This document shows positions 17,487-46,347 of a DNA stretch of 52,414 nucleotides, piece by piece. The notes beneath the pieces are model-generated. The model was given only the letters and a program-made list of their open reading frames with translations, was not told the DNA's origin and did not search any database. This DNA comes from an uncultured Clostridia bacterium (lineage in GTDB: Bacteria; Bacillota; Clostridia; Oscillospirales; Ruminococcaceae), in assembly GCA_947631535.1 (NCBI GenBank), contig CANRLU010000004.1:1-52414 (forward strand), read 5' to 3'. The stretch's first letter is position 1; each line of letters begins with the position of its first letter. The position numbers were made by a program, and so were the translations under genes.

Positions 17487-17515
17487 ATTATATAACGATG
17501 CATTTAAAATTACAA
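17487..17515 (-). promoter_or_regulatory. promoter of the GH28-GH105 operon
   Basis: On the minus strand TTGTAA and TATAAT are 17 bases apart, about 32 bases before the GTG start. It is divergent from the promoter at 17588, with 72 bases between them for shared control. Confidence 0.7.
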
Positions 17516-17587
17516 TAGCTTTGGGGAAGTTCCCGCCCTCCTGCTTTTGTGACAAAACGGCGGTGCGGTTTTTGTTAAAAACAACTA

Positions 17588-17616
17588 TTGAATATTTATT
17601 TTTAACAAAGTATAAT
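17588..17616 (+). promoter_or_regulatory. promoter of the secreted coiled-coil protein gene
   Basis: TTGAAT and TATAAT are 17 bases apart, and the ATG lies 41 bases downstream. Confidence 0.7.
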
Positions 17617-17657
17617 TATATTGTACAAATTGCTCAATTTATAAGGAGGTAAATAAA

Positions 17658-29269: not shown

Positions 29270-31366
29270 TCAGTGATTGCTGAAGATGATAAGCTTATCT
29301 TTAGAAGACAGCTCTACTTCAATGTCGTCCTGATTGCCTGAGAAAATGACCATCTTTCCGTTGGGGCCGGTATACCCTAAAACAACCGCCTTATTGTCGG
29401 CAGGTGAAGCCTTATACACGCTCCAGATCAACTCCCTTGCCGTGCAACGTCCGGGTATCTTGCCGTCCTCGAAGAATAGGTTTACTTCCTTGACGTACAG
29501 TTCCTTGCTCTTAAAAGCTTCTGCCTCTTCTTCATCATAAGTCAAGATATCGGAGTAGAATTCAAACAGTGCCTGTTTGCGGCCTATCTGCGTCACCATT
29601 TTGCTTATATAGCGATTGCTTATTACAACATTGTCAACGCTGTAGTTGTGGACAACGTCGTAGTTCTTCGGGTTTAATATTTCAACGATGACGTCGATGC
29701 TTTCTCGGTCGAAATCAGGGCGATTTTTAAGCCGCTCAAAAATGATGTCCTGAACATAGATCAGATATGTCAATGCTGCGGAATCTATATCTTCGGTGGT
29801 AGTATAGTCATCGGACAGTATAAGAAGGCTTGTATTGCCGTCATAACTGTCAATAGCCTGTTCTATTGCTTCTTTTATTTTTGGGGCATTATATACATCA
29901 GCGGGTACTGTTTTGGTCACATAGGGGTATTTTCGATAATTGTCCAGACGCTCCAAACTTTTTGCGTCATCGATCACCGTTATGTTCAGAATTTCTTTTT
30001 CGGATTTATTGTGCTCGCCGCGGAACGCAGAAAAACCGTTCATAATATCCTGGCATTTGCTGTTATGGCCGATTATAACAATGTTTCTATGAAGCATTTG
30101 ATATTTGTAGTTCAATTCTACATTTAACGTATTTTCAGCAGGCTCGCAGACGCGCTCACTGTCGTCATTTGAATTGGAAACGGTAAATGCATAAGTTCCC
30201 GAAGCCGTTTCCATAATGGTAAGCGGTATCGCATAACTATGTGTACGCATATAATCCTCCGTAGCCTTTTCGATGTCGTCTTCCATCGGCACCGGCTTAA
30301 AGAAGAACTCGGCTCCTCTGTTTGAAAACAGCTCGCTGTATACGGTGTTGAGCTCCGGCATAATAGAGAACTGCGAAAGGATCTGGCCGAGAACTTTATT
30401 AACATACACGGGGATTATATGGCATTTCGCCAGCCGTTCTTTATGCTGAATTATTCTTTCGACCAAAGACGCGGTCCAGTTATCCTCGACCTCTACAATA
30501 ATGGTCTGGTGGTCAGCGGATTCCTCGCTCGAAGTCATCTGCGCGACCTGGACCAAGGTCTTTATAGTGTTGGTATTGCCCTTTTCGAGCTCTTCGCGGC
30601 GCTCGATGTTCCCGTATCGGCAGACCTCGTTCTGAATTTCTTTTGTCAGCAAAATGACGCTTGCAGCCTGCGAAATGGAAATGTCATTCAGCTGCTTTGT
30701 GGAATATGTTTCGCCCTCTCTGACTATGACCGTAATACGGTTTTTTGTACGGTGTTTCAGATAATACGGGATCTTTCTCAGCGCAGGCAGCTTCTGACAT
30801 TCTTTTTTGAGAAGCATCTGATCGTTCCTGATCGAGGTGGACAGACGGTCCCCTATTTCACGCTCGATTTCGGAAGCATCTTGGCTTGCGAGGATAACAA
30901 CGGTTTCACGCTTTCCGGTATAAAGAAGGTCGTTTATTATTTCCGAAGCTCTCGAATTCCAGTTTAAGATAACGGTATGCCCCGACACTTTGAGCGCTCT
31001 GTTGCCGGATTGGGAATTTTCAATAAACGTTGAAATATAGTTCGTGACATAACCGACGACCGCGCCCGTGAATGTGATCATTCCGGTAATTACCGTTAAG
31101 ATGCATACGATAATGAGCACGACGCTCGTCTCTCCGATATCGGTGATAACGTTGCTTATGCACCCGGCATCAAGTACCATGCTTATTGTATAATAAACGG
31201 ATACCCAGAAGCCCGAGTCGGAGAGAGAATACGGCGACAGCCACGAAATAATTGCGGCCGCTCCGGCAAACAGGGCAAGATTGAGTATCAAAATCATTAT
31301 GAGTATTGCAAGTGACGGATTTTTTACAACAAAAACACTGATTTTTTCTTTTAACTTTTTGTACAT
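29270..31366 (-). CDS. CASTOR/POLLUX-like ion channel with RCK/TrkA-N domains
   Basis: The 698-residue protein has two N-terminal transmembrane helices (about 18-44 and 85-112). Between them lies a pore-like segment YYTISMVLDAGCISNV, whose L-D-x-G resembles the filter region of the CASTOR/POLLUX family. Next comes a Rossmann-type domain starting ALKVSGHTVILNWNSRASEI, and a second near MLHRNIVIIGHNSKCQDIM. Such proteins are tetrameric cation channels gated by cytosolic RCK domains; plant members work in calcium signalling. The ATG at 31366 follows a TTG at 31369 that could also start the protein; GAGG lies 7-10 bases upstream. It is the sixth gene of the VWA/tubulin-like operon, 105 bases after the lipoprotein gene. 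Ion selectivity is not shown. Confidence 0.78.
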   Translation of the reverse strand: MYKKLKEKISVFVVKNPSLAILIMILILNLALFAGAAAIISWLSPYSLSDSGFWVSVYYTISMVLDAGCISNVITDIGETSVVLIIVCILTVITGMITFTGAVVGYVTNYISTFIENSQSGNRALKVSGHTVILNWNSRASEIINDLLYTGKRETVVILASQDASEIEREIGDRLSTSIRNDQMLLKKECQKLPALRKIPYYLKHRTKNRITVIVREGETYSTKQLNDISISQAASVILLTKEIQNEVCRYGNIERREELEKGNTNTIKTLVQVAQMTSSEESADHQTIIVEVEDNWTASLVERIIQHKERLAKCHIIPVYVNKVLGQILSQFSIMPELNTVYSELFSNRGAEFFFKPVPMEDDIEKATEDYMRTHSYAIPLTIMETASGTYAFTVSNSNDDSERVCEPAENTLNVELNYKYQMLHRNIVIIGHNSKCQDIMNGFSAFRGEHNKSEKEILNITVIDDAKSLERLDNYRKYPYVTKTVPADVYNAPKIKEAIEQAIDSYDGNTSLLILSDDYTTTEDIDSAALTYLIYVQDIIFERLKNRPDFDRESIDVIVEILNPKNYDVVHNYSVDNVVISNRYISKMVTQIGRKQALFEFYSDILTYDEEEAEAFKSKELYVKEVNLFFEDGKIPGRCTARELIWSVYKASPADNKAVVLGYTGPNGKMVIFSGNQDDIEVELSSKDKLIIFSNH

Positions 31367-31442
31367 CAATATGTTCCTCGCTTTTCGGATTGTATATGGA
31401 AATTACGGCTCTGATTTTATCGGCCGTTTAGAGACGCGCTTT

Positions 31443-31470
31443 CAAGCCCCTACCTATTGGCGGGGGCTTG
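31443..31470. repeat. hairpin between the lipoprotein and channel genes
   Basis: CAAGCCCC and GGGGCTTG pair around a 12-base loop, directly after the lipoprotein stop codon. On the minus strand no T run follows, so it may be an RNA-processing or partial stop signal that lowers channel expression. Confidence 0.55.
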
Positions 31471-31474
31471 TGTT

Positions 31475-31942
31475 TTACATATCGATCGAGAGCTTTGAGA
31501 TATACCAGACCTCATTTTCTCTTATGCACCTGAAAGTTGCCGGCTTATTCTGCTCAACGCCGTCCGAAATATATGTAACGGTTGCCGTACCGGTAGCCTC
31601 ATTTCCCGTAACGTCTACGGTGTTGATTTTGATCTCTACCGTTGTAAAGAAATCACTTGTCCCGAAGAGCGAATTGTCAAACAGGATATTCGCCAGCGAC
31701 TGTATTATCTCTTCGGAGGATTTCGATGTAAACAGCCCGACCAATCCGGCCGCCGTCTCTATAGCATCCGCAACTTTCGGGTTGATGCAGTCCAGCATTT
31801 CTTCGGTATCAAGCTCGTGACAGGACTCCTCAAACCTGTTCATAAGCTTTCTGATATCGATTTTTGAGGTGTCACAGGCTGTCAGCGAAAGAGCTATTGC
31901 GGCGACTATGAATATCGCCAAAGTCTTCTTTATAAATGTCAT
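31475..31942 (-). CDS. small lipoprotein of unknown function
   Basis: The 155-residue protein has a lipoprotein signal (MTFIKKTLAIFIVAAIALSL, lipobox LTAC). The mature part starts with a helical stretch (LMNRFEESCHELDTEEMLDC) and ends in a beta-rich half (VEIKINTVDVTGNEATGTAT, then ENEVWYISKLSIDM). This recalls the NTF2-like or DUF4878-type lipoproteins of Firmicutes. Its ATG overlaps the stop of the 1952-residue gene (ATGA), so the two are translationally coupled and the lipoprotein probably joins the same envelope complex from the outer side. A hairpin follows its stop codon. Confidence 0.85.
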   Translation of the reverse strand: MTFIKKTLAIFIVAAIALSLTACDTSKIDIRKLMNRFEESCHELDTEEMLDCINPKVADAIETAAGLVGLFTSKSSEEIIQSLANILFDNSLFGTSDFFTTVEIKINTVDVTGNEATGTATVTYISDGVEQNKPATFRCIRENEVWYISKLSIDM

Positions 31943-34900
31943 TGTCCTTCCTCCTGCTCTTTGAATATGACGGTGATCTTAAGCTTTGCATCGTCGCAAA
32001 ATGCCGATATGGCAAGCTGCCTCCCGCATTTTTTTGCTGCGCTCATCAGCCATTCGCGGTCTTTGAAGCGCTCCTTGAAGTGATCAAATATCTCATTATT
32101 TGCGCATTTCAGATCCGCAGCAAATTCCCCTGCCATAAGGCGCGATTCGAGTATTCCGATGACCGCATCGTCATCGGCGCTTTGAATATAAAGACCGCTG
32201 CGCAAATAGTAGTTGCAGTTTCTGCTCGCACATTCAGGCGCGTGATACTTTATATCGGGAGTATGTCCCAAGGCTTCAAGCTCGTCAGAAGTCATAGCAA
32301 AGCAGTCGTAATTTATATGCCGAGCGCCGTATTTCAGACTGTCCGCATTTGTTGCGGCACACCCGAGCGCAGCATCAAACCAGTAATACTCCCCATCAAG
32401 CCTTATGAGATTCCAAGCATGAGTTTCATCTGAAATATAGCAACATTCGATGCCCGCAAGGTTCATAATGTATTCCGCGGCTCTTGCAAAGCCCTCACAT
32501 ACCGCACACTTCCCGACAAGAGCGCCATAGGCCGACCTTATGTCAGGCACATCGGTATCCGGCTCGGCTGCTTCTACATTTCCGATAAGATACTCATAGA
32601 TGAACAGCGCTTTGCCGAAGTCGTCGGCATCTTTTACTCCGTTCAGGACTTCCTTTGCATCACTGTCGAGCTTTGAAAGCTTTTCTGAGGTTTCGTCGGC
32701 GCCGGTCAGGTATTCAAAGCTGACCGTACGGCTTCCTTCGCCCGACACCGAGGCGCTTCCCCCAAACTGGATCAGCTCGGGGTGATCGCTTCTGACAAAG
32801 CTGATCACATCTTTAATAAGATCGGTGCTTGCTTCGCCCGAAATATCGACAGCCGGCAGATGCGTGCTTACCGCTAAAAGTATCCTGTCATAAATCTCCT
32901 TGCCGTCTGCGTCAAGGAGCGATCTGCAATAGTCGGAATAAGGCTTTGAATCGCTCTTCTGCACGGGAGCTGCGCTTTCTTCCTGCTGAGGCGGCTCCGG
33001 CGGAGCAACGGTCTTTGCTCCGGTGCGGATATACGAGCTGCCCTCGTCGGGATAAACGGCGCTTCCGTAAGGAACAGGCGGCAGGTCGGAAATAGCTCCG
33101 CAATAATCGGGGTCGAGCGGCATTTCGGTGTTAAAGAACGGAGTCGGCTTTGTCAGCACCGTGCCGGTAGTGAGCGGATAATTTGCTCTGTAACGCAAAA
33201 ATCCGTAGCCGTATTCGTCTTTGCGGTTTTCGGTAATGATCTCCTCGCGCTTTGCAATAGCAGGCTCGTTTATAAGATAGGCATACTGTATCTCTACCCA
33301 CTCTGCCATTCCGTCATATATCTGAGGCAGGAGCTTCTTGCCGTAACGGCGCTTTAATTCTTTCTTGTTCCAGTTGATATACTGCCAGATATGAGTGAGC
33401 TCATGCGCTATCCCCAGCATGCTTGCCATTGCAGGCGCGCCGTTTTCGACCATGATCGTATAGCCTGACTTGTCCTTTATTGCAACTCCGATCACTCTGC
33501 CGTCGGCCTTCGGGGTCGGTGTAAATGACGTTCCGGTCTTTTTATTGAGCTTCGCGGAGTTTACCATTCTGACCCTGATACCGACATTGAGAGATACTCC
33601 GAAGAAGGATTCAAAGTTTCTCTTAACATCTTCATACAGCTTCTTGAAGTGCTCCTCAGACTTGACCGCAGTTCTTCCGCAGTTAATGCAGCGCTCTCTT
33701 CCGTCGGACAAGACCTCATATTCGGTCCCGAGTATTTCCACGCCGCAGAAATCGCAATATTTGGCGTTCGGCTTATCGGGGACATAAGTAGCCTCGATGA
33801 ATTTCGCGATATCCTTGCCGTTTCTGGCCTGCTTGAGGAAGTTGTTTCCGAAGCCCATGGCCGTGAGATAATCATAAGTTCCCGCGATATCTGTCTCGGC
33901 CGGAACGCTGTCGTAGCCGTAAAGAAGGTAATATCTCTCATAATAAGGCTTGCGCACAAAGAGAGGACCTGTTTCCTTCTGCTCCTTTTCCTCGGAAATT
34001 TCGGAGACTTCCGAGTCATAGGCCATATCATTCTTCGGCAGCTCGCTCACCTCTTCACTGCTTTCGTCTTCATCGGACGCATCTTCTTCCTGCTGCACGG
34101 CTTTGTCCTCTGTATCGGAAGGCTCTTCCGCGCCGTCCTGCAAGGGTGATTCGGGTTCGGTCGCCGATTCGGGCTCCGCCGCCGCTTCCGGTTCCGGCAC
34201 TGTCTCAGGCTCGGGTACCGCTTCCGCCTCGGGCGCCGTCTCTGTCTCAGGTAGCGTCTCCGCCTCGGGAACCGGCTCCGGCACAACTATGCCGTCATCG
34301 GCAGCGGACTCCTGCTCGGATGCATCGCGCTTTTTCCGGCCGAAAAGTTTCCCGAACCAACCGTGTTTGTCCTTCTTTTTCTTTTCTTTCTTTTTTGAAG
34401 CGCCGGCCGCTTCGGGCGAATCGGTCTGCGGCTCCGCGAAAACCTGCCCGCTTTCCTGACCCGCTTCTTCCTGCGGAGCGATATTGCCGTCAGGCGTTTG
34501 CGGCTCGCCGTTCTTTTTCTTCTTTTTCTTTTTCTCTTTCTTAGGCTTTTTATCCTTTTTCTTAAAGAGATTTTTGAATTTTTCTGCAATTCTTGAGAAC
34601 CAGCCGCGGATACCCTTCTTTTTCTTGTCGGATCCTTCCGATTCGTCTTTTTCAGGTCTCGGAGGCGGAGGTTCGGGCTTTGCGAGACTTTGCATCAGCA
34701 CTTCGGAGTGCCAGTCGAGATAATCCTGAATTATCTCAAAGATCCTGTTGAGATTGCGCTCGACGGCGGTGGTCAGACCGAGGTCAAGCTGGCTGTCCTC
34801 GATGATGTATATGCTGTTGCTGCTTACATCGCCGGTCTCTGAGCAAAGAGAATATGTCAAAGGACCTTCGGTGCCGGCTTCGGCTCCGGTGACAGCGCAG

Positions 34901-37797
34901 ATATACGCCTGATTCTCGGCAAACAGCGTCCTGAATACCTCATTGAACATCAGCGCAATCGTGTAAATAACGCGCTCGCCGAGCAGGCCGTTCATTTCGG
35001 GCAGGTCGAGGCGCAGTATCTCTTTGTTGCAGTATTTTCTGACCGGAACGGAGCTGTATTCTCCGCCGAGAATGACCTTTCTCGCGTGGTTGAAATCGTT
35101 GTAGCGGTCCATAAGGTAGTAGCCCGAAGTTTCTACGGTGATATCGGCATACTCCCTTATCACTTTCATTCCGGAGATATCCTTCTGCGAGCCTATGACC
35201 GATGAGGGCCTTATTCCGGTCAACGTGTATTTTCTTATCTGGCGGTATGACGGTCTTGAAGTGATGTGATCGGAGGCGCGCCTTACCATTACCTGGCCTG
35301 CGGCGGTCAGATAAAGCATTTCATAATACTTTCCCGCGAAGGTGAATTTCTGCCCGGGAAGATATTTCTGATAGATCTGCTCGCTGAGCTCGGCGCCGAG
35401 ATAGTGCAGCTCGCCTTTTTCGTCTTCCGAAATGTATTCTGCGGACCTCAGACTTGAAACGCAGCCGGAAATAAACGGCTTGCTGTCGATATAATAGACC
35501 GTTTCGACCTTTCCGCAGGCGATATTATAATGAGCCTTCGATTTAATTATGCTGACATCTGCGTTGTCCTTGGGGTTATCGCTGACCTCAAGAGACTTAA
35601 GAGCAACTGCCTCCACCGCTTCCTTATAATTCTCGGGAAGCTTTTTCAGCTCGTCTGCGGTAGCATAGCACTTATAAATCTCAAACCAAAGCTGAGACGG
35701 AATATCAAACGACTTGATCCCTATCAATGAAAGCTCTTTCTCGACATTCTGCTCGCTTATATATCCGCGCGACATCAAAAGCATCAGCCTGAGAATGGTG
35801 TTGCGCTGGGTCCTGACATAATCCGCCGCTATGTAAGGGACCGCCTTGGCATCGGTTTCAAAAACGGAGGCATTGTCGGCCATATAATCCTTGAGCAGGT
35901 ATTCGGAGGAAATGACGTTTACAAAGCCCTGCTCTTTCGAGCGCGTTGAGAACTCCCTAAGGATCTCAAACATATTGAAGGATTCGTCTTCGACCGTGAA
36001 ATAGTTGTTGTCGCTGACCGTGGCGCTCCAGAAATCTATCGAGGTCTTGTAGCGCTCGTCCATCACGTCCTGACTTGTAGGAAGTCCGGCATATTTCATC
36101 AGGTCATAGTAATACTGCCTGCCGACCCAGTTGATATCAACGACCGGGAAGGCCTCTCCGCCGTACCATACGGTTTTTGACACCTGGTTTTTAAGCGCGG
36201 CAAAGGAAAGCTCGGTGCCCATTCCGAGATATCTGGAAATATTCGGCACCATGCGGTGGTGAAGATATTCGCTGTCTGTCTCCCATGTCATATATGACAG
36301 GGTCCCGCTGTGCTTCTCGGTCGCCGATACTTCGGTCAGGCTTATCATCAGCGCGTGTGACAGCGCATCTACAAGTCCGTCGCAGTTTTTGTCGCATATG
36401 CAGAACGTGAGCTTTTTATCCTCATCACTAAGGCATTTCTTGACGAGGATATTGAGCCCTATCTGGGCAGTGGTCATAAGCTTCGAGGGTTCGATGATAA
36501 CAACGAATTTGACTTTGCTCAAAAAAACTTCGTTGGCATTGTGAACATCGACATCGAGTATCGACGATCTCGTCACTATTCCTATGTCCTGATCTCCCGA
36601 CTTATTGCCGAGAACACCGATGTTCCACATAAACGGGATATTCGTTACGGCGCCTATTCCGTCCTGTATCCACTGAACGATATTGTCTTCAATAGAATGT
36701 CTTCCGACTATAACAAGGACCTTGCCGTGCTCTAAAAGGGCGCGGTTCATAGGATAGAAGGCATAGGGTATAAGATCGTTATAAAACGGATTGTTGAACA
36801 GTATGCTCTTTCCGTTCATCAGGTCGATAGAGGAATTAAGATAGCTGCGGTCGAGCTGAAAACCTTTTGCGTTGATACGCTTCAGATAGGAAGCGTAAGC
36901 ACAGATCTTCGGGTCTTCGTCCTTTTCGAGCTTCTTGATTATCTCATCGGTCGTAAGATCATACTCAAGAGCACTGTTTACGCTCGTCTTTTCCGACAGA
37001 AGCTTGTCGCCGAAGAGATTTCGCAAAAACTTGCGCATCAGCGAATAGTTGACGATCTTATATGCTTCCTCGTTCTCTCCGAGGATATCGACGGTATACT
37101 CCCGACGGGTCGCTCCGTCGAGATAAAAATACAGCTCCCCGACGAGTATCACTCCGAATACAGGGTAGAAGATCCTGCTGAGAAGGCCTTGATAGTACAT
37201 TCTGCAGGTGACGAGCGTGAGTACCGACGAGAATATGACCGACGCGTAATAAAACCATTTGAGATAGGTCCTCGCCTGCGCATATGAATTTTTGACGCAC
37301 CAAGTATCCTTTTCGGGGAAATAGTCGTAAAACACTCCCGCTATTTTTTCATGCAGCACAGAGTGGGTATTTACGGCATTTGAAAGAACGGAAATGACAA
37401 TTTTCTTGACTATAAGGTATGCGACGACTATTACGCAGTTGGAGATAAAGAACACCCAGAAGGTCAGATTGAGCGAAGAAATGACCTGACGGAGTATTTC
37501 CGAAAGGTTTACCAAAAATTCGGAAATCTCTTCGGGCATCCAGGATACTTCATCAAGCAATTTCGCAAGCCTTTCGACCAGATTCGGCAGAAAGTTGATG
37601 ATATCCGTGATCAACATATTGAGCCTGTTTATCAGAGTCATTGCAGCAATGCTGAATACCAAGGCCACCGCAGGCATAGGAAACTGCTTACTGCGGTAAG
37701 GCTTTTTAAGATTGACTCTTTTGCTCATAAGGCAAAGCAGAACAAAAGGCAGCAGTGCGACCGCCCATTTAATGATCGCATTTATAAGACTACTCAT
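31939..37797 (-). CDS. giant membrane protein with DA1-like metallopeptidase and transglutaminase-like domains
   Basis: This 1952-residue protein has about five transmembrane helices in its first 230 residues (about 7-25, 42-58, 111-135, 180-200, 206-226). By the positive-inside rule the large remainder lies in the cytosol. Residues of about 240-1030 have no recognised family. A linker of about 1035-1270 is first strongly basic, with two Gly-Trp-Phe amphipathic stretches near 1066 and 1151, then acidic and proline-rich. Next come a LIM-like zinc ribbon (Cys1348, Cys1351, Cys1370, Cys1373), a metallopeptidase motif AHELTHIWQ (His1465, His1469) and MAEW (Glu1499), the order found in DA1 peptidases. 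The C-terminus is transglutaminase-like, with Cys1767 (AVCEGFARA), His1793 (THAWNLIRL) and Asp1808 (WFDAALG). It overlaps both neighbouring genes. AGAGAGGA precedes the ATG. Confidence 0.85.
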   Translation of the reverse strand: MSSLINAIIKWAVALLPFVLLCLMSKRVNLKKPYRSKQFPMPAVALVFSIAAMTLINRLNMLITDIINFLPNLVERLAKLLDEVSWMPEEISEFLVNLSEILRQVISSLNLTFWVFFISNCVIVVAYLIVKKIVISVLSNAVNTHSVLHEKIAGVFYDYFPEKDTWCVKNSYAQARTYLKWFYYASVIFSSVLTLVTCRMYYQGLLSRIFYPVFGVILVGELYFYLDGATRREYTVDILGENEEAYKIVNYSLMRKFLRNLFGDKLLSEKTSVNSALEYDLTTDEIIKKLEKDEDPKICAYASYLKRINAKGFQLDRSYLNSSIDLMNGKSILFNNPFYNDLIPYAFYPMNRALLEHGKVLVIVGRHSIEDNIVQWIQDGIGAVTNIPFMWNIGVLGNKSGDQDIGIVTRSSILDVDVHNANEVFLSKVKFVVIIEPSKLMTTAQIGLNILVKKCLSDEDKKLTFCICDKNCDGLVDALSHALMISLTEVSATEKHSGTLSYMTWETDSEYLHHRMVPNISRYLGMGTELSFAALKNQVSKTVWYGGEAFPVVDINWVGRQYYYDLMKYAGLPTSQDVMDERYKTSIDFWSATVSDNNYFTVEDESFNMFEILREFSTRSKEQGFVNVISSEYLLKDYMADNASVFETDAKAVPYIAADYVRTQRNTILRLMLLMSRGYISEQNVEKELSLIGIKSFDIPSQLWFEIYKCYATADELKKLPENYKEAVEAVALKSLEVSDNPKDNADVSIIKSKAHYNIACGKVETVYYIDSKPFISGCVSSLRSAEYISEDEKGELHYLGAELSEQIYQKYLPGQKFTFAGKYYEMLYLTAAGQVMVRRASDHITSRPSYRQIRKYTLTGIRPSSVIGSQKDISGMKVIREYADITVETSGYYLMDRYNDFNHARKVILGGEYSSVPVRKYCNKEILRLDLPEMNGLLGERVIYTIALMFNEVFRTLFAENQAYICAVTGAEAGTEGPLTYSLCSETGDVSSNSIYIIEDSQLDLGLTTAVERNLNRIFEIIQDYLDWHSEVLMQSLAKPEPPPPRPEKDESEGSDKKKKGIRGWFSRIAEKFKNLFKKKDKKPKKEKKKKKKKNGEPQTPDGNIAPQEEAGQESGQVFAEPQTDSPEAAGASKKKEKKKKDKHGWFGKLFGRKKRDASEQESAADDGIVVPEPVPEAETLPETETAPEAEAVPEPETVPEPEAAAEPESATEPESPLQDGAEEPSDTEDKAVQQEEDASDEDESSEEVSELPKNDMAYDSEVSEISEEKEQKETGPLFVRKPYYERYYLLYGYDSVPAETDIAGTYDYLTAMGFGNNFLKQARNGKDIAKFIEATYVPDKPNAKYCDFCGVEILGTEYEVLSDGRERCINCGRTAVKSEEHFKKLYEDVKRNFESFFGVSLNVGIRVRMVNSAKLNKKTGTSFTPTPKADGRVIGVAIKDKSGYTIMVENGAPAMASMLGIAHELTHIWQYINWNKKELKRRYGKKLLPQIYDGMAEWVEIQYAYLINEPAIAKREEIITENRKDEYGYGFLRYRANYPLTTGTVLTKPTPFFNTEMPLDPDYCGAISDLPPVPYGSAVYPDEGSSYIRTGAKTVAPPEPPQQEESAAPVQKSDSKPYSDYCRSLLDADGKEIYDRILLAVSTHLPAVDISGEASTDLIKDVISFVRSDHPELIQFGGSASVSGEGSRTVSFEYLTGADETSEKLSKLDSDAKEVLNGVKDADDFGKALFIYEYLIGNVEAAEPDTDVPDIRSAYGALVGKCAVCEGFARAAEYIMNLAGIECCYISDETHAWNLIRLDGEYYWFDAALGCAATNADSLKYGARHINYDCFAMTSDELEALGHTPDIKYHAPECASRNCNYYLRSGLYIQSADDDAVIGILESRLMAGEFAADLKCANNEIFDHFKERFKDREWLMSAAKKCGRQLAISAFCDDAKLKITVIFKEQEEGQ

Positions 37798-39814
37798 ACA
37801 ATTCCTCTCTTTCGAGTATAATTGACTTCAGGTAGTCAACGGGGAGTGATACGGTATTGCCGGGCCGGATATAATCTATCTCGGTTTCGGATATAGCAAA
37901 CGGCATCGGATAATCGTAATTCGCCATAACGGAATAGTCGTAGTCATAGGGCTCTTCCGGAGCTCCGGCAATATCCGACTGCTTCGCCGAAAAGATCCTT
38001 GTAACATCGTCTATTCGGTGCTCGATCTCAAGAAGATGATTTGTCATGATCTTGCACTTAAGCGAATCTTCGGTGTCGTTTCCGCCGATATAATTGAGGA
38101 CGGAAAACTCACGCATAACGTTGCAGGTATGGCTGAGATACTTTGAATATTTCTTTAAACCGTTATAGATATCCGAAATTATTCCGCTCATAACGTAATT
38201 AAAGCTCTTAAAACGGTTCACGAGCCTTCGCTTCAGAACGAGCAGGCAAACAAAGCCGACCAGCACAAAAGCTGCGGTCGCAGACAAAGCCGTGAGCGCC
38301 TGCATCGCAAAAGTACCGAGGCCGCGGTTCCCGATAAAGAACGGTATAAAGCCGAACATAAACGCCAAGATCGCTGCAGCACCGATGAGAAGAGTTTTTA
38401 ACCTGGTCATTCGCAGAGATATATAGTGCTTCAGCTCCTTGTCAGCCTGTTCCATTTTTTCGGTGTACAGATCACTGTCAAAAAGATTTTCGGTTTCGGT
38501 ATCGACCATAAACTGCTCTTCGTCCTGAAGCTTATAAAGAACGTCTTCCTGCTGATATTCGTTCAGCGCAAGAGATTTCGGGTCGTCGATGGAATTTTCG
38601 GCCCTGAAATCACCGGTCACGGCAGTTTTAACGGCTCTGCGCGGCTCGCGCAAAAAGCGTATGAACAGTTTGCTTATCCGGTGATACTGATTATCCCAAT
38701 AGCTTTCCTCGTCAGCGGGACAGTTTTTTGACAGACCTATGTTATATTCCGCCATAAGATCATCGGTGTCGTACTCGGAGCTTATCTCGACCGGAATATT
38801 TGACTCGCTTTCAAAAAGATTCCTTGCCTCTGCATTTGTCATTGACGGCACCGGCTTTGCGGCTATCCTGTCAATGGCGTTCCTGATCTTAGAGTGTGTA
38901 GCGCTCAGCTTGCGGATATATCTTCCGCACGCCTCCGACTTTCTTGCGTTGTCGGCTGCGGTCACTATTCTGTATACCCTGTTCGGCCTTGCGGCATCTG
39001 TGGGAAGCCCGTTTACCGCAATAGTTATCACAGACAGCAAAAAGTTGAAATATGTCTGTTCATTGCGCTGAATTCCGATATACGGTATGTCAAAAAGAAG
39101 GTATCTGAGCTTATCGGGATAAAGATTATCCTCATAGAACCTTGAATAGTCAAATTCATTGTAAGACTTCCAAAGCTCTGCCTGGCTTGCCAGACCGTCC
39201 AAAGATACCCTCTCCGCTGCCGCAATGATATGTTTAGGCCGGTTAAAAATAGCTCCGCTGACTTCAAAGTGCTCCGAAAGCAGGTCATATTTTCTGACTC
39301 TTGCAAGATCGATCTCATACTGCAGCGGGTCAATGCCGCGATATTCGAGCTCGTCAAAATACTTGTCGTCAGACACATCGGGCAGATCGCTGTAAATTTC
39401 GGGAAGGACCGGTTTGACCTTTATCGGAATACCCGCAAGCCAAATCGAAAGCCGCGTCAAAGGATTTCCGAGCGCCTTTTTATAGGCGGAATCGGTATAG
39501 CTGCGAAAGTCCTCGACATCGCTGCAGGTGACAAGCTTTTGGGGCTTGCGGGAATTGACATAATCGAACGGATTGCGCTTTTTGATCCCTTCGGAGCCGA
39601 TTATCTCTTTGCTCAGGACTATAAGCGCCTGCCAGTCGGTCTCCTGACCGATCACCGCACTTAATCCCGGGACCGCCTCGTCAAGAGTCTTGCCGTCGGT
39701 AGCCCATTCGCAGAAGGCAACTTCGCTGCTCTCGACAAGCGGTCTCAGATAAATTCCGTAATTCAGTTTATAATCATCAATAATGCTTTTATCGCATATG
39801 ATAACCGTAAACAT
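37790..39814 (-). CDS. two-helix membrane protein of the tubulin-like operon, unknown family
   Basis: No family was recognised for this 674-residue protein. The N-terminal 75 residues look like a small alpha/beta domain (FTVIICDKSIIDDY). A long soluble, acidic, mostly helical part follows. Two transmembrane helices lie at about 473-493 and 503-529, with an Arg/Lys-rich end (LVLKRRLVNRFK). The C-terminal 140 residues are soluble and Tyr-rich (EEPYDYDYSVMANYDYP). By the positive-inside rule both ends are cytosolic. GGAG lies 6 bases before the ATG at 39814; an ATG four codons upstream at 39826 has its ribosome site too close. It ends inside the start of the 1952-residue gene (8-base overlap), which suggests coupled synthesis and a common complex. 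Confidence 0.85.
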   Translation of the reverse strand: MFTVIICDKSIIDDYKLNYGIYLRPLVESSEVAFCEWATDGKTLDEAVPGLSAVIGQETDWQALIVLSKEIIGSEGIKKRNPFDYVNSRKPQKLVTCSDVEDFRSYTDSAYKKALGNPLTRLSIWLAGIPIKVKPVLPEIYSDLPDVSDDKYFDELEYRGIDPLQYEIDLARVRKYDLLSEHFEVSGAIFNRPKHIIAAAERVSLDGLASQAELWKSYNEFDYSRFYEDNLYPDKLRYLLFDIPYIGIQRNEQTYFNFLLSVITIAVNGLPTDAARPNRVYRIVTAADNARKSEACGRYIRKLSATHSKIRNAIDRIAAKPVPSMTNAEARNLFESESNIPVEISSEYDTDDLMAEYNIGLSKNCPADEESYWDNQYHRISKLFIRFLREPRRAVKTAVTGDFRAENSIDDPKSLALNEYQQEDVLYKLQDEEQFMVDTETENLFDSDLYTEKMEQADKELKHYISLRMTRLKTLLIGAAAILAFMFGFIPFFIGNRGLGTFAMQALTALSATAAFVLVGFVCLLVLKRRLVNRFKSFNYVMSGIISDIYNGLKKYSKYLSHTCNVMREFSVLNYIGGNDTEDSLKCKIMTNHLLEIEHRIDDVTRIFSAKQSDIAGAPEEPYDYDYSVMANYDYPMPFAISETEIDYIRPGNTVSLPVDYLKSIILEREELYE

Positions 39815-39862
39815 ATTTTTCTCCATTCCTCACCTAAAAGGTTGAGCTCAATTTATAACTGC

Positions 39863-42800
39863 TTATGAAATGACAACTTCCTTGAGGCTGCTCATCATTT
39901 TATCCGACACATCGAGATCGGTGAGAACATCTACGACCTTTCTGCGAACGGCGGAAATGATATCCTCGGTGTCGCTGCTGCCGGTGGGATGCTGTGTGAT
40001 GAACATATTGAACTGCTCGGTCAGGATCTTGCCGGTATGAGCGTTGATGTCGTCGCTCCTGTCAAAGCAGGATATCTCGTCACGAATGGCCTCGATCTCG
40101 GCATCGATCATCGTTTCGATCTCGGCTGCGTCTCTCTGACGGGCGGGCAAAGATATATAGTATCTGAGAGGAAGCTCAAATACGGATACCAAGGCGTCCT
40201 TGTCATCGTTTTCGCCAAGCTCTTCGTCTCCTACGAGCATACCGAGCTTGAGGGCTCTGAGGGCAGCCCCGAAGTGAGAGTAGTCAAAATCAACACCGTT
40301 CTGCTCATCGATCCTGCGCAGCCTCTCTACGGAGGTGTGGATCGATTTGACAGCTGCTCTGTCGAAGTAAAGCGAATCAAGGACCTCGTACAATTTATCG
40401 CACTTGGTCTTATTGGAAACGATCATCTTTTTGTAGCCGTTCTTTCCGTCGAGATATCTGTAAACGGTTCTGGCAAGATCATACTTCGAGGGGTGTCTCA
40501 GCGAAATAATGCTGTGCAGGAAGCCGTAGAGCATAGCTTTATGGATATGCTTCATCAGGTAGTCCTGATAGTCGAGGTCGATTTCCGGCATCACCGAAAT
40601 TGAGCTCCATCTGCTGTCGATATGAGGAGTGATAACGGAATTCATCCTGCTGTCGGGGCCGATATCGTCCATATATAGCTGATACTGGTTGAAGCTCTCT
40701 CCGGCGCCGCTGTCGTCAGAGTAGTCGATCACTTCAACTCTCGGACGGCTGCTTCCGTCGAGACGCGGTGCGCAGAATTGGAACAGCTGAGTAGGCATTA
40801 TCACATAGATCGATCTGAAGAACCTGACCTCATATCTGGAAACGGTATCGGAAGCATCTCTTTCGCTGAAATAATCTTTAACTCTGAGACCGTCGCCGTC
40901 CTTGATATAGTGGCTGTAGGCTACAGCGTCAACGTCGCGCGCTTCGTCAAAGCTCTTTCTGCATACGCCCGGAGTCGCGAGGTTTCTACATTCAGCCATC
41001 TTGGAACGAATGTAGCGATCGATCGATCCCATATCCTTGGATCTCTTTGAAATACGTTCTCTGTCCTGCTCGGGAGAATTGTAAGCATCAACTTCGCATT
41101 TGATCTTGTACTCGAGCTTGAGAGCGTGGAGTATGTCGATATCGAGAATATCCGCATATTTTTCCTCTACGACCGCGCGATAGCTTCCGATCATGACTTC
41201 GTCGAATATGTCATGCTTGGCATCGCTGTTAAACTTGTCATACTGGCGCTTTGTATCGATATCCGAATTTTCTTTGAGCATATCGTGAATGTTTGCGAAT
41301 ATTTCCTCTCCGGCAACTTCGCCCTCTGCTCCGACATACTCAACCAGCCTGTCAAGATAACTGCGATCGCTGAACAAATTGATGATGCAGTCTCCGTCTC
41401 TGTATTCAAGTGAAGAAACGATATTTTCCTTTCTTCTCTCAAGCGCAACCGCCTTATCCTTGAACGAGCGGAAGAATTCCTCATAGGCTCTGCAAAGACT
41501 CTTTACGAACGGAAGAGCCTTTTCTGCGAGCAGCTTTGATAGAATTTTTTTGTAGTGATTTTCAACTGTGGTAAAATAACTGTTGAGATTCTGGCTGCAC
41601 TTTCTCTTTTCTTCATTACCTTTTTCAGCACCAAGCTCATCGCAAGCAGCGCACATTTCTGCAAGTGAAGTTTCCCGTCTTCCATAGCCGTTTTTTACCT
41701 CAAACTCGCTCGGGTTGCTGCCCAACTTCACGCTGTCAAGTTTATCTCTATATTTGTCGCCGTCTTCTTTGTATTCCTCGACAATCTTTTCAAGACGAAC
41801 CCAAAGTTTGTAAAGAAGATATCTTACGGCAACAGGGTGAATGGCTTCTCCGCTGATGCTTATGAATCTCTGAAGCATATGGTCACGAAGATCACGGTTT
41901 CGGACAGAGACATTGCTTTCGAAAACACCGTTTACAAAGTCTGAAACAAGAATTTCTAAATTTCGGTCGTTAGCAATCTTTTCAAGCTTCTCAATAGATT
42001 CATATCTATCAACAAATTGCGGCTCATCAGGATTATATGCCTTTTCAGAAGCGGTATTATAATCCGGTAAAAGCTTAAGCCTTGGGATAATATAGCTCAT
42101 TATTCCGTAGTTGATGAACTTATTGGCATAATTCTCAGTATATGCGTCTGCAGCAACAGAAAGCTGAGAAATATTTTCAACAGTTTCTGCAGAAGATACC
42201 ACCCTGCGAAGGTATTTTGAAAACAGCATATCAGCGAACTTGTCGCTCTGTGCTCTCTCGATATATTCGGGATATTTCTGATAAAGTTTCGGCTCCTTAT
42301 CGGCGCTTATAGGCATACTTTCGTATTCTTTCTTTTCGTCATCGAAAATCTGATCATATTTCAGCCAAGAGTCGGAAATTGAACTTTCGCGCTCTTCATC
42401 GGTCATTTTCTCGCCGACTTTGCCGAACAGGTTCTTCTGAGCCATATCCGAGGCAATAAAATCGCATACATCGGAATATGGGTATCTCAACATCGACGAA
42501 CCCGCGCCGCCGAACCTGCATCTGCCGAGCTTTGAAGGCTCCATAAATTCCTTGATAACATTGTCTTCTTTACTGGAAGCGCTGAATCGCATCGGACCTA
42601 TGTTCTGCTCGTAAAGGGTCCGTGCAGCACTCTCCATATACTGATCAAGCCCTTTCATGGTGTGCTGGTCGTTGTCAACACGGTCAAGAAGGAAGCAAAA
42701 GTCAAACGGCAAGCCGTTCAGCTTTATTGATTTGCCGCCGGTTGCAGGAACGGTGATATGAAGATCTCTATAGCGATTCAATCTACGCTCCGAATCAAAG

Positions 42801-43486
42801 AATCCGCTTCCGCGCATCATAAAAGCATTGATTTCTTTTATGGTAGCATATCCGTTCCTCAAAAGGCTTGCCCTTTCGCTCTCGCTGGTAATTACCGTTC
42901 CGTTCATAACGCTCGGTAAAATGAGATATCCCCTGATTATGGCAGCGGATTCCGGATAATTAGTGCTTATGTAGTGGCGGACGAGCATGCCCATTTCCAT
43001 TGCGATTCCGGAGCCGGTTCCTCCGGCGGTGGTGGAAACGATGACGACCTTTATGGCATGATTCTTATCCTTGCCGTTCTTGAGGAACAGCTCGTCGATC
43101 TCTTTGTAAAGCTTGTTTATCTTACCGTTTTTAATGGTTGCGTTAAGGGCAAGCCTCGAAATGGCTCTGAGCTGGCCTGCGCCCTCGGAAACCGTCTTGT
43201 CGTCGATGATGTTGTTGCTCGGGAACCAGTTTGCCGTGTCGGGATCATCTTCGAGATAGTCCCTTACCGATCTGGGAGAAGACGTCTGGATCGTAGTGAC
43301 TTTGACCCCCTTTTCGACCCTTTCCAAATCGTTGACATCCGTGTCGAGAGTGACAAAGCGCACAGCGGAAATATCATCATCAATGCACAGGTCTGCGACC
43401 TGCTTGACAATGTCAGATCCTCTGCCACCGACACCGATAAACAATGTTGCGTCTACATGGTTGGGCTGCAAAATTTCTTTTTTCAT
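39863..43486 (-). CDS. tubulin/FtsZ-like GTPase-fold protein, large
   Basis: The N-terminal third of this 1207-residue protein has the tubulin-superfamily nucleotide fold. There is a T1-like loop IGVGGRGSDIV (about 17-27), FVTLDTD in the next strand, and the superfamily signature STTAGGTGSGIAMEMG with GGTGSG at 155-160. FtsZ itself is about 380 residues, so this protein has some 800 extra residues, mostly charged and helical, with no membrane segment. It therefore resembles the large tubulin-like proteins found beside VWA genes. AAGGT lies 9 bases before the ATG. It sits 27 bases after the VWA gene and 48 bases before the next. It may polymerise under the membrane and organise the partners, which is inference. 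The middle of the gene (about 41500-42650) is visibly AT-richer than its ends. Confidence 0.85.
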   Translation of the reverse strand: MKKEILQPNHVDATLFIGVGGRGSDIVKQVADLCIDDDISAVRFVTLDTDVNDLERVEKGVKVTTIQTSSPRSVRDYLEDDPDTANWFPSNNIIDDKTVSEGAGQLRAISRLALNATIKNGKINKLYKEIDELFLKNGKDKNHAIKVVIVSTTAGGTGSGIAMEMGMLVRHYISTNYPESAAIIRGYLILPSVMNGTVITSESERASLLRNGYATIKEINAFMMRGSGFFDSERRLNRYRDLHITVPATGGKSIKLNGLPFDFCFLLDRVDNDQHTMKGLDQYMESAARTLYEQNIGPMRFSASSKEDNVIKEFMEPSKLGRCRFGGAGSSMLRYPYSDVCDFIASDMAQKNLFGKVGEKMTDEERESSISDSWLKYDQIFDDEKKEYESMPISADKEPKLYQKYPEYIERAQSDKFADMLFSKYLRRVVSSAETVENISQLSVAADAYTENYANKFINYGIMSYIIPRLKLLPDYNTASEKAYNPDEPQFVDRYESIEKLEKIANDRNLEILVSDFVNGVFESNVSVRNRDLRDHMLQRFISISGEAIHPVAVRYLLYKLWVRLEKIVEEYKEDGDKYRDKLDSVKLGSNPSEFEVKNGYGRRETSLAEMCAACDELGAEKGNEEKRKCSQNLNSYFTTVENHYKKILSKLLAEKALPFVKSLCRAYEEFFRSFKDKAVALERRKENIVSSLEYRDGDCIINLFSDRSYLDRLVEYVGAEGEVAGEEIFANIHDMLKENSDIDTKRQYDKFNSDAKHDIFDEVMIGSYRAVVEEKYADILDIDILHALKLEYKIKCEVDAYNSPEQDRERISKRSKDMGSIDRYIRSKMAECRNLATPGVCRKSFDEARDVDAVAYSHYIKDGDGLRVKDYFSERDASDTVSRYEVRFFRSIYVIMPTQLFQFCAPRLDGSSRPRVEVIDYSDDSGAGESFNQYQLYMDDIGPDSRMNSVITPHIDSRWSSISVMPEIDLDYQDYLMKHIHKAMLYGFLHSIISLRHPSKYDLARTVYRYLDGKNGYKKMIVSNKTKCDKLYEVLDSLYFDRAAVKSIHTSVERLRRIDEQNGVDFDYSHFGAALRALKLGMLVGDEELGENDDKDALVSVFELPLRYYISLPARQRDAAEIETMIDAEIEAIRDEISCFDRSDDINAHTGKILTEQFNMFITQHPTGSSDTEDIISAVRRKVVDVLTDLDVSDKMMSSLKEVVIS

Positions 43487-43513
43487 CGTTTTTACCTTCT
43501 TTTCTATTAAAAT

Positions 43514-45802
43514 TTAATTTATCTCAAATTTGCATACATATGTTTCCGCCGGTATATACGGTTCCGCAACCGTCGTATATATTATTGTGAAGCCGTCATA
43601 TACCGACTCAACACTGTATTTTGACCAATCTACCTCTGTTCCATCATCATAGATAAATTTTCCTTGACGCTTTTCATTAAAGCTATCGCCACCAATCATT
43701 ATGCTTGAAAGTTGATCTTCATCTACCATTAAGCCCGTAATACCAAATGTAGCACTTTTCTTACGGCGATTTAACAAGTTAGACTTTTTTATGGCCCTTT
43801 TCATACTTATGGACCTCGGTGTGCTGAACACAAGACTGTTGGTGTTTCTCTTGAAATTTATCTTTCTTTTGCGATTGCCGCAAACATACACAACTTTTTT
43901 GGGATAACATTTCCAGTTCTTCAGTATGATGTAAATCAGCAGAGCAAGCGCAAGCAGTGCGGCAATAATTATCAAAAAGAAGAAATCTATAAGCGCCTGA
44001 GGGACCTTTGAAACAGTGAAGCTCTTGCTTTTGTTCGCGCTGATCTCCTTGCCGGTGTCCTCGGGAATATAAGAGGCGTCAGCGCTGAACTTGAACCCTT
44101 TTGTAATTCCGCTCCCGAGATATTCGTTCTTTATACCTTCGGCGTCTACCGTTCCGTTTGCGTCTCGCTTTCCGATATACACGGCAAATGCGGATTCTCC
44201 GCTTAATATCTGAGGCTCGGAATGGGTTATCGCAGGATCGAATTTAAGATCAAGCATAACGTCGGCGAGCTGCTCGTCGGTCAGAGGGCTGCCGTCAATA
44301 TCAAGCTTAATTATCATCGGCTGCCATTCGTCTGCTTTTTTTGTATAATAGAAGTCTCTGGTCTGCTCCGTAGAGATGTTGATCCCGAGGTCGTGTTCTA
44401 CGATTGGTTTGATGACTATGCTAAGAGTGCCCTGAGTATCCCTGGTCGAAATAGAATATTTTCCCCCGAGATAAGTTCCGTCAATGCAGAAGGTCGCGCT
44501 TTCATTGGGGATAAGCGTCACGACCCTTCCGGCCTTGATAGTTTCTCCGTCCCCGCCGGAATAGGAAAGCGTCCCCGACATCTCGACTTTTCCGAGAAGC
44601 TCCGAACTGTCTACCCTTTCTCCGGTAACTCCGTCAACGAGATAATAGTCAAGCGTATAGTCGCCCTCGTCGATCTCGATAGACTCCAAAGGCGACAGCG
44701 ATTCATCGAGCGCAGTTATGTCTTCTCCGTCCTTTGTGAGAGTATATTTTATCTTTACGTTCGGTTCATAGAAGATCTGGACCTTATCGGGATCGCCCGT
44801 GTAGTTAAGAACATACTCGCCGGACTGACAGCCGTCAAATACAACGACCTGACCGTAAAGACTGTCATCGATAACGGTTATGCTCTCATTGCGCTCACCG
44901 ACGCCCAGAACAAGATCGCCTAATTTTCCGTATCCAAGGCTGTATTCCTTGCCGCTGTATTTTCTCTGCCCGCTGTCCGAAATAACGCCGACGTTTCCGT
45001 TGGAGCCGGTCAATGACGATATCTCCGCACCGTCGCCCTGAACAAAGACGATAAGACGGTTCATAGATACGTCAAGCGATACCTTCCCGTTCTTAAATTC
45101 GGACTGCGGCAGTTTGTTTCTTTCAAATATTCTGTTGCAAATGCTGATAAGCGCTTCGTTCAGCTCTTCGCCGGAATTTGCCTTGTCGGCATAAAAGCCC
45201 TTGGATTCATTAGCGTCCGCCGCTTTGGCGCTTCCTCCCATTGCAAGATACTGAACTTTGATGTTTTTTGAAAGGTCGGCGAATTCGGGCAGATTATCGA
45301 CGTCCTTGCCGTCGCTGTTGAAAACGCCGTCGGTCAGGACTACAAGCCATTTATCGGTGGCATCGGAACTTCCAAGTGCTCTAACCGCATCTTCTGCCGG
45401 AGTGAGAGGAGTATCGCTTCCGACGGTAGTATACATATAGTGTATCTTATCAATATCTCCGATGCTCCGTATCTCAACAGGCTTCGGATCATATTCCATG
45501 ATTTCCGAAGGCTTCTGAGGGTTTCTGACCGTCTGGACCTCCCACATCGGATAAATCGTCAGCCTGTCTCTGCTGTAGTCGAGCATTGAGGCAAAAATCT
45601 CCATGGCATATTTGGCCTGACACCACATTGCACCGTTATACATAGAAGTTGAGTTGTCATACACAACTGCAATGTCATATGTATGGGTCTCTTTCTGAGT
45701 GACGACTGAATCGGCTCCGAAGACCGGCACCGCTGTCATGCAAAACAGCAAAGCCGCTGACAATACCGATATCAGAAGTGCCTGAAAACGCTTTTTAGTC
45801 AT
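43514..45802 (-). CDS. exported von Willebrand factor A protein with membrane anchor
   Basis: The 762-residue protein starts with a Sec signal (cleavage near VPVFGA, residue 30) and a VWA domain with a complete metal-ion site: Asp49-x-Ser51-x-Ser53 in YDNSTSM, Thr131 in GSDTPLT and Asp158 in LTDG. Residues of about 260-600 are beta-rich and look like several Ig-like domains. One transmembrane helix (about 606-628) leads to a 134-residue tail whose first 50 residues are strongly basic and could contact the cytosolic partners. I chose the ATG at 45802, which has AGAGG 8 bases upstream; the open frame to 45910 crosses the leader and is not coding. It is the first gene of the six-gene operon and probably its outward-facing sensor or adhesion part. 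Confidence 0.92.
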   Translation of the reverse strand: MTKKRFQALLISVLSAALLFCMTAVPVFGADSVVTQKETHTYDIAVVYDNSTSMYNGAMWCQAKYAMEIFASMLDYSRDRLTIYPMWEVQTVRNPQKPSEIMEYDPKPVEIRSIGDIDKIHYMYTTVGSDTPLTPAEDAVRALGSSDATDKWLVVLTDGVFNSDGKDVDNLPEFADLSKNIKVQYLAMGGSAKAADANESKGFYADKANSGEELNEALISICNRIFERNKLPQSEFKNGKVSLDVSMNRLIVFVQGDGAEISSLTGSNGNVGVISDSGQRKYSGKEYSLGYGKLGDLVLGVGERNESITVIDDSLYGQVVVFDGCQSGEYVLNYTGDPDKVQIFYEPNVKIKYTLTKDGEDITALDESLSPLESIEIDEGDYTLDYYLVDGVTGERVDSSELLGKVEMSGTLSYSGGDGETIKAGRVVTLIPNESATFCIDGTYLGGKYSISTRDTQGTLSIVIKPIVEHDLGINISTEQTRDFYYTKKADEWQPMIIKLDIDGSPLTDEQLADVMLDLKFDPAITHSEPQILSGESAFAVYIGKRDANGTVDAEGIKNEYLGSGITKGFKFSADASYIPEDTGKEISANKSKSFTVSKVPQALIDFFFLIIIAALLALALLIYIILKNWKCYPKKVVYVCGNRKRKINFKRNTNSLVFSTPRSISMKRAIKKSNLLNRRKKSATFGITGLMVDEDQLSSIMIGGDSFNEKRQGKFIYDDGTEVDWSKYSVESVYDGFTIIYTTVAEPYIPAETYVCKFEIN

Positions 45803-45845
45803 GATGTGTTCCTCTCTTAAACATGTTTTCTCTATTTCCGTACTG

Positions 45846-45902
45846 TAATAAAACAAAAACGCTGCCCTATCTTTTCCGCATAAAGCAGGGAAAATCAGAC
45901 AG
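45846..45902 (-). promoter_or_regulatory. possible attenuator in the leader of the VWA operon
   Basis: On the minus strand CTGTC pairs with GGCAG and TTTTCC with GGAAAA across an internal loop, followed by CGTTTTTGTTTTATT. The structure lies between the promoter and the first start codon, so it could stop early transcripts. Pairing is imperfect. Confidence 0.35.
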
Positions 45903-45950
45903 CGAGCCAACCGTATAAAGATCCGATTTCAAATTTTTCCCTCATTCGAC

Positions 45951-45979
45951 ATCATATAACACCTTTTGACAAATATCAA
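45951..45979 (-). promoter_or_regulatory. promoter of the six-gene VWA/tubulin-like operon
   Basis: On the minus strand TTGATA and TATGAT are 17 bases apart, leaving a leader of about 140 bases before the ATG at 45802. No other promoter was recognised inside the operon. Confidence 0.65.
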
Positions 45980-46314: not shown

Positions 46315-46347
46315 CAAAAATGCCTCCCGTCCAAACGGACAGAAGGC
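46315..46347 (-). terminator. terminator on the minus strand after the 238-residue membrane protein
   Basis: On the minus strand GCCTTCTGTCC pairs with GGACGGGAGGC over 11 positions using two G-U pairs, with a GTTT loop, followed by ATTTTTGATG. Read on the plus strand the G-U pairs become A-C mismatches, so the minus strand is the functional one. Confidence 0.8.

Follow-up and report, generated by a model that had tools for sequence, protein, structure and literature searches.

Gene content of the locus and the conserved core

The window analysed here comprises 52,414 nucleotides from an uncultured Clostridia bacterium (Ruminococcaceae; assembly GCA_947631535.1, contig CANRLU010000004.1, positions 1-52,414 of the forward strand) and carries six minus-strand open reading frames (ORFs), one of them encoding a tubulin-like protein. 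In order of transcription, they encode an exported VWA protein (VWA, 43514-45802), the tubulin-like protein of 1207 amino acids, aa (TUB, 39863-43486), a 678-aa membrane protein (TM2, 37790-39826), a membrane-anchored multi-domain protein of 1952 aa (BIG, 31939-37797), a small putative lipoprotein of 155 aa (LPP, 31475-31942) and an RCK-type channel protein of 699 aa (RCK, 29270-31369). The distances calculated from these coordinates are 27, 36, -8, -4 and 105 bases, confirming the six genes with short gaps or overlaps described by the sequence-only reading and supporting its tight membrane-protein operon.

Relatives were collected with a profile of the BIG N-terminal part against one genome per species, yielding 107 relatives, and the best 80 of these 107 loci were kept. 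Motif counts refer to 67 VWA, 69 TUB, 75 TM2 and 68 BIG relatives, and the BIG helicase alignment has 77 rows; the loci L037-L047 and L064-L143 overlap partly in genomes, so their counts were not summed. The order VWA, TUB, TM2, BIG was detected in 68 of the 80 loci, and the remaining 12 lack the first genes and start less than 400 bases from a contig end. Median gaps in this core are 32, 34 and -8 bases, and the TM2/BIG overlap is exactly 8 bases in 50 of 79 loci. In five divergent relatives (L049-L053), VWA, TUB and a gene of about the size of TM2 are retained, and a BIG relative was detected by profile in four and by blastp only in L050. ORF calling at L038 and L043 took a wrong-strand ORF across TUB.

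The six genes had been proposed to form one block, and this held for a part of them: VWA, TUB, TM2 and BIG travel together, whereas LPP relatives were detected in 5 of 80 loci (with profiles made from L037-L048 and the window) and RCK relatives in 17 of 80. The conserved unit is the four-gene core, and LPP and RCK are swappable accessories; independent occurrence is seen for these two genes and leaves the four core genes unaffected. The BIG-LPP-RCK arrangement of the window is present also in L100 and L143. Across 46 genomes, 11 of 23 RCK matches lie near the core versus 0.10 expected (Poisson); nearness was judged by hand, and a copy in G619 about 7 kb upstream of the core was left uncounted. 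The window RCK is 74% identical to the RCK of L138, while the BIG proteins share 48%, and 51% identical to that of L065, where the BIG proteins share 61%; since these identities are out of step, the accessories were swapped as modules.

By record, 78 of the 80 loci belong to Clostridia, one to Erysipelotrichaceae, and one has no class; the carriers are some Clostridia, many of animal-gut origin, and those without a metagenome mark include Flavonifractor sp. An112, Pseudoflavonifractor sp. An44 (L099, with a complete copy in its assembly) and Faecalicatena contorta ET51. Of 295 genomes of the order, 26 have TUB matches (distant kin included), and of 391 genomes of the class, 5 have BIG matches, the own genome being counted in both; no TUB was detected in the two same-genus genomes listed. 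The distribution of the system is patchy. A mobile-element reading was dropped, with no BIG match among 72,556 plasmid records and no confirmed BIG relative in viral contigs.

TIR and RyR genes adjacent to the core

Recurrent flank neighbours at the 80 loci, besides RCK and LPP, are TIR proteins and a protein with transmembrane (TM), TrkA and RyR parts (15 of 80); Pfam names of neighbour genes come from representatives. Of the 47 loci with 6.9 kb or more of downstream sequence, 46 served as the background set for TIR and RCK; L067 (RCK present, TIR absent) was omitted. A counted TIR gene lies within about 9 kb downstream of the core in 15 of these 46 long-flank genomes, whereas the expectation from 144 TIR_2 matches over about 103 Mb is 0.52 hits (Poisson). 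The positive set is 16 loci minus L108 (weak, opposite strand), with genome positions paired by hand, and L130 and L132 were counted although their same-strand matches are weak. The TIR architectures beside the core are TIR-LRR, TIR-TPR, TIR-HD and TIR-NACHT-TPR. The RyR part has Pfam matches below the cut-off and PDB matches to ryanodine receptors (best E 2.1e-13); relatives of the RyR protein occur also in L048, L049 and L051, and one in L054 is about 9 kb away from a different FtsZl1 gene.

On the BIG tree (46 rows), the presence of RCK, RyR and TIR genes needs at least 8, 10 and 8 changes, and on the TUB tree (43 rows) at least 7, 9 and 9, so that these links were gained or lost repeatedly. 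TIR and RyR-domain genes are adjacent or one gene apart in L070, L072, L083, L091 and L134, suggesting a nucleotide signal. Phage RyR-domain proteins bind or cleave cyclic ADP-ribose (cADPR) signals made by TIR, according to a 2026 preprint (PMC13232231), and by this analogy a link from TIR to a RyR channel beside the core is plausible, no more.

Several other genes accompany the TIR genes. A CitMHS-type transporter gene directly follows the TIR-LRR5 gene in L083, L091 and L117 (Pfam on L083, clustering for the others). In L127 (6807-11989) a TIR-HD protein near the core is followed by a KAP-NTPase/methyltransferase fusion; L129 has a TIR-HD gene near the core and, by clustering, a KAP-type gene upstream of it. 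In L072 a PrsW-type intramembrane protease gene (17613-18473) lies between the RyR-domain and TIR-LRR genes.

BIG carries a predicted degenerate helicase fold and peptidase and transglutaminase parts

Residues 1-240 of BIG (37078-37797, minus strand) are predicted membrane helices, with three strong hydrophobic segments, two further TM segments picked by eye and long helices in the structure model. Residues 281-1036 (34690-36957) are modelled as a degenerate superfamily 2 helicase of the MrfA/DUF1998 architecture. In the AlphaFold2 model (pLDDT 88.8), the top Foldseek match is MrfA, a DUF1998 helicase (E 8.5e-23, residues ~289-1036), and the overall MrfA fold, two RecA-like domains and the MrfA C-terminal part, is found in the predicted model at about 11% identity.

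The ATP site appears to be decayed. The Walker A and B motifs are not intact in the 77-row alignment: the lysine of the GKS motif is replaced in 21 of 77 rows, and, if the invariant Glu 436 is the motif II glutamate, a reading that depends on an hhalign profile alignment, the preceding aspartate position is I, V, L or M in 77 of 77. The window BIG has no cysteine after residue 985, and a cysteine-cluster pattern occurs in the last 90 residues of 2 of 77 rows only, the rows ending at differing places. The MZB/DUF1998 Pfam model had no match in 12 members, and the window genome has no PF09369 match. Proof of the helicase link from sequence comparison was sought and not obtained: the hhalign local p values (0.04 and 0.026) are not significant, controls at the p 0.04 run gave 0.38 (reversed) and 0.083 (TUB), and the score of 29.5 for BIG against the helicase was reached by 5 of 40 block-shuffled controls. 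The helicase claim therefore depends on the structure model, by which the N-terminal half of BIG is mostly a DUF1998 helicase fold with a decayed ATP site, apparently inactive. BIG thus resembles the MrfA/YprA DUF1998 (MZB) helicases in overall fold and differs from them in its low identity, decayed ATP site, membrane anchor and additional peptidase parts.

The C-terminal half has a putative zinc ribbon with CxxC at 1348 and 1370 (33679-33756; DZR E 0.012, below the cut-off), and two CxxC pairs are present in 67 of 68 relatives. A metallopeptidase motif, HELTH, occupies residues 1465-1469 (33391-33405) and is followed by a conserved glutamate in a GMA(E/K)W motif; HExxH was detected in 65 of 68 relatives. 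No peptidase family passed the Pfam cut-off for BIG, and a PDB sequence search with the peptidase region gave no match. A by-eye suggestion that residues 1340-1560 resemble the DA1 LIM-peptidase (PF12315) was dropped, the model match not being significant: none of 98 genomes, the window genome included, passed the cut-off, with one sub-threshold match in the BIG of G069 (E 0.385, hand-placed).

A transglutaminase-like domain was detected at residues 1722-1806 (32380-32634; Transglut_core E 1.3e-5, 25.9 bits, cut-off 23). The transglutaminase motif is fused to BIG in 14 of 68 relatives, and at 13 of 68 loci BIG is divided into two adjacent ORFs. After BIG, a transglutaminase-like gene of its own is present in six Lachnospiraceae-type loci (L127, L129, L130, L132, L134, L141) and in L085, whose BIG holds a fused motif as well; among the stand-alone genes, Pfam was run on that of L085 only. 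The stand-alone proteins of L073, L085, L118 and the six Lachnospiraceae-type loci have an N-terminal signal or TM segment by eye.

TUB, VWA, TM2 and the accessory proteins

TUB matches Tubulin_2 (PF13809) with 172 bits (cut-off 27, E 2.9e-50, residues 15-351), and the GTP-binding loop GGTGSG is present in the window protein and in 69 of 69 relatives. The TUB profile matches other FtsZl1 proteins of the phylum (99.5%, E 9e-23, residues 13-348). These Pfam, motif and profile matches place the predicted GTPase domain at residues 13-351 (42434-43450) and support TUB as a tubulin-family GTPase of the FtsZl1 kind. PDB sequence searches with the BIG and TUB profiles returned, respectively, none and one designed protein at E 0.053.

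The VWA ORF is readable from TTG 45910 (43514-45910), and its true start is likely ATG 45802 (762 aa), which is preferred because GAGAGG lies upstream and a signal peptide follows. The predicted protein has an extracellular VWA part, one TM segment near the C-terminus and a cytosolic tail. Its metal ion-dependent adhesion site (MIDAS) motif, DNSTS at residue 85, is intact; MIDAS lies within the first 250 aa in 64 of 67 relatives, the remaining three starting at a contig edge, and 60 of 67 have both signal peptide and C-terminal TM segment. The window VWA protein has no Pfam match, and a PDB sequence search with the VWA region gave none; among eight scanned relatives, one (L071) passes the Pfam VWA cut-off, four are below it and three have no match, so Pfam supports the VWA fold through relatives only.

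TM2 has two predicted TM helices (473-491 and 513-531, by hydrophobicity) and no Pfam match over the cut-off; 61 of 75 relatives have two such segments, 13 have three and one has one.

LPP has a lipobox-like LTAC, consistent with a lipoprotein. RCK is a predicted two-TM channel of the CASTOR/POLLUX type, matching Castor_Poll_mid (E 4.6e-6, 27.0 bits, cut-off 26.7) and, by phmmer against PDB, CASTOR (6o7c, E 7.1e-5) and DMI1 (1.4e-4). The pore motif in 15 aligned RCK rows is DAG in 14 and DPG in one, and DAG is present in CASTOR as well. The RCK protein shares this with the CASTOR/POLLUX (DMI1) channels and differs in being bacterial and encoded beside a tubulin/VWA operon; it matches them only in part, over short stretches. 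In L096, genes for a phage terminase and portal protein (15205-18655) come after the core and LPP.

Comparison with known systems

Makarova and Koonin proposed in 2010 a membrane-remodelling system of FtsZl1 and vWA proteins (PMC2875224). As far as the accessible text of that article describes it, the present locus is similar in its FtsZl1-type GTPase (Tubulin_2), a vWA protein with intact MIDAS and membrane proteins, and different in its helicase-fold protein and in the channel and TIR accessories; also unlike that system, the six window proteins match no protein kinase, OmpA or P-loop GTPase model. The sequence-only reading had proposed a more complex clostridial form of this system, and the peptidase, transglutaminase and CASTOR/POLLUX-type channel parts agree with it, while a fixed six-gene block does not. 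Its domain calls stand: the exported VWA protein with an intact metal site, the tubulin-type signature and family, the two-helix membrane protein, the 1952-residue multi-domain membrane protein with peptidase and transglutaminase parts, and the lipoprotein and RCK-type channel. The BIG helicase fold, the TIR and RyR neighbours of the relatives and the tubulin theme discussed below were absent from it.

Kaur et al. (2020, PMC7159879) describe GAP1-N2 conflict systems of Firmicutes that centre on tubulin and combine tubulins with vWA proteins, GAP1 and GTPases; TIR is one effector across a wider set of conflict systems. The features shared with this theme, as given there, are a tubulin with a long C-terminal part, a membrane protein with a predicted extracellular vWA behind a signal peptide encoded with the tubulin gene, more TM proteins and the occurrence in Firmicutes; unlike it, the core has one tubulin (not two) and one vWA, plus TM2 and BIG. 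GAP1 and Double-GTPase were searched for in the ORFs of the 80 loci (at most 23 kb each, reaching about 2 kb upstream and between 0 and 9 kb downstream). The GAP1 query from L057 (phmmer, E 0.01) gave no match, its reach being limited, since it finds only L061 among L037-L063; the DO-GTPase2 query from L057 gave none in the fetched DNA and does find L060, L061 and L062. Pfam GAP1 has no match for the six window proteins, and the TM2 and BIG profiles have no profile match to GAP1. The block may work like the GAP1-N2 systems, and, because GAP1 and Double-GTPase were not found at the 80 loci and TM2 and BIG are unmatched to GAP1, it is not classed as a member. We read the core as a new form of the tubulin/vWA conflict systems already published; no description of the four-gene unit was found in the open-access literature searched. 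A locus from the same taxonomic order as the window, L057 (1987-18051), suited to comparison, encodes two tubulins, VWA, DO-GTPase2 (over the cut-off) and GAP1-M (21.8 bits, cut-off 24).

Thoeris consists of TIR plus a cADPR-triggered effector. The side-by-side TIR and RyR-domain genes of the relatives are similar to it, and to our knowledge the tubulin/VWA/BIG core is foreign to Thoeris.

Possible functions of the system

Our preferred reading, with a probability of about 45%, is that the core encodes a surveillance and effector complex that is bound to the membrane and depends on GTP, and that would most likely be a conflict system of an immunity-like or envelope-stress kind. VWA would sense a ligand or cell-surface damage, TM2 and BIG would form a membrane platform, and the BIG pseudo-helicase may serve as a scaffold for nucleic-acid or nucleotide sensing, not as a motor. 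GTP-bound TUB would assemble and set a threshold, activation would free the peptidase, and in many lineages TIR enzymes (via NAD-derived signals) and channels of the RyR or CASTOR type (via ion flux) would execute the response. This reading is based on the core order, the MrfA fold with its motif decay, the TIR and RCK enrichment, the repeated gain and loss of these links and the swapping of RCK modules, and on the reports on phage RyR proteins (PMC13232231) and tubulin/vWA conflict systems (PMC7159879).

A number of observations weigh against it. The window operon itself has no TIR or RyR gene, 31 of the 46 genomes have no counted TIR downstream, and PADLOC assigned no family to any of the six window proteins. 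The Poisson expectations (0.52 for TIR, 0.10 for RCK) ignore kinship among genomes; on the tree, the link between RyR and TIR presence is not significant (eight independent pairs, on average 2.2 concordant versus 0.4 opposite, median p 0.5). The TIR neighbours could stem from a common insertion hot spot or defence island, and gene neighbourhood is not interaction. For BIG, the Foldseek superposition on MrfA has a high root-mean-square deviation (8.6-9.7), and by Z score DEAD-box proteins outrank MrfA, which covers more residues; moreover, the stand-alone transglutaminases appear to be extracellular, whereas the BIG topology suggests a cytosolic location.

In the sense of Makarova and Koonin, the locus could instead encode a machine for membrane remodelling or vesicle formation, in which TUB filaments at the membrane, linked through TM2 and BIG to an external VWA domain for adhesion or sensing, would shape the envelope, with the peptidase and transglutaminase acting on partner proteins by trimming or cross-linking. 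In its favour are the FtsZl1 GTPase with a VWA partner and several membrane proteins, and the published proposal for FtsZl1 and vWA operons (PMC2875224); yet the repeated attachment of TIR and channel genes is unexpected for a housekeeping shape machine, carriers are scattered (5 of 391 genomes in the class for BIG, neither same-genus genome listed for TUB), Pfam recognised no curvature or bilayer-binding domain, and this analysis yielded no evidence specific to remodelling, so we hold this function rather unlikely. An ion or osmotic-stress sensor, regulating the adjacent CASTOR/POLLUX-type and TrkA-RyR channels under envelope stress with the TIR neighbours unrelated, is unlikely: it agrees with the presence of RCK in 17 and of RyR proteins in 15 of the 80 loci, with the RCK enrichment (11 versus 0.10 expected) and with the DAG pore motif in 14 of 15 RCK rows, but neither kind of channel gene occurs in 26 of the 46 long-flank loci, and the TIR enrichment is strong too.

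The secretion or assembly of a surface polymer, with BIG as a degenerate motor-like platform that exports or processes it and with transglutaminase and VWA outside, appears very unlikely. The exported VWA, the HExxH motif of BIG and the stand-alone transglutaminases, which come mostly from Lachnospiraceae loci and by eye begin with a signal or TM segment, fit such an apparatus, while the seven flank clusters found in at least four loci include no obvious secreted substrate and the decay of the BIG helicase motifs leaves no ATP motor identified. Within the surveillance and effector reading, a more specific immune machine is quite unlikely, in which the external VWA sensor and a GTP-dependent tubulin assembly would act via the membrane-anchored pseudo-helicase, releasing the peptidase and switching TIR enzymes whose ADP-ribose signals would open adjacent RyR-domain or CASTOR-type channels. 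If true, it would amount to a TIR-cADPR-RyR channel pathway in a prokaryote that is under the control of a tubulin, with a former DNA-repair helicase now acting as a sensor.

The role of FtsZl1 in published work, as far as the available parts of PMC2875224 and PMC7159879 go, is a prediction, and the compact four-gene unit recurs in carriers without a metagenome mark and is therefore experimentally testable. A helicase fold deprived of its ATP-site residues and tied to the membrane beside a tubulin would, if true, be a striking reuse, and the recurrence of TIR, RyR and CASTOR genes beside the core points towards a bacterial context where NAD-derived signals may gate such channels.

Promoter and terminator signals and flanking genes

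A sigma-70-like promoter, TTGATA-17-TATGAT (45951-45979, minus strand; a consensus match only, 10/12), lies ahead of the operon, as expected from the single promoter proposed previously. Counting against a single promoter, minus-strand sites of equal score (10/12) were detected within the block at 39153-39125, 38481-38454 and 31732-31704, of which the third falls within LPP, ahead of RCK, and a weaker terminator-like site lies just past the BIG start (37766-37747). Candidate signals that could split the block are seen inside it; 33 promoter-like sites were found versus 23.2 expected and 30 terminator-like sites versus 21.1, so individual sites, the internal ones included, carry little proof.

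Upstream of the operon, a gene at 46460-47176 encodes a protein of 238 aa that has several TM segments and belongs to no known family, and a terminator-like hairpin (46322-46347, minus strand; 11 pairs, 7 G-C, T-rich tail) separates it from the operon. Just downstream, on the same strand, an alpha-amylase family gene (27811-29124) has its own promoter-like site (29181-29153, with TG ahead of the -10 element) and probably lies outside the system.

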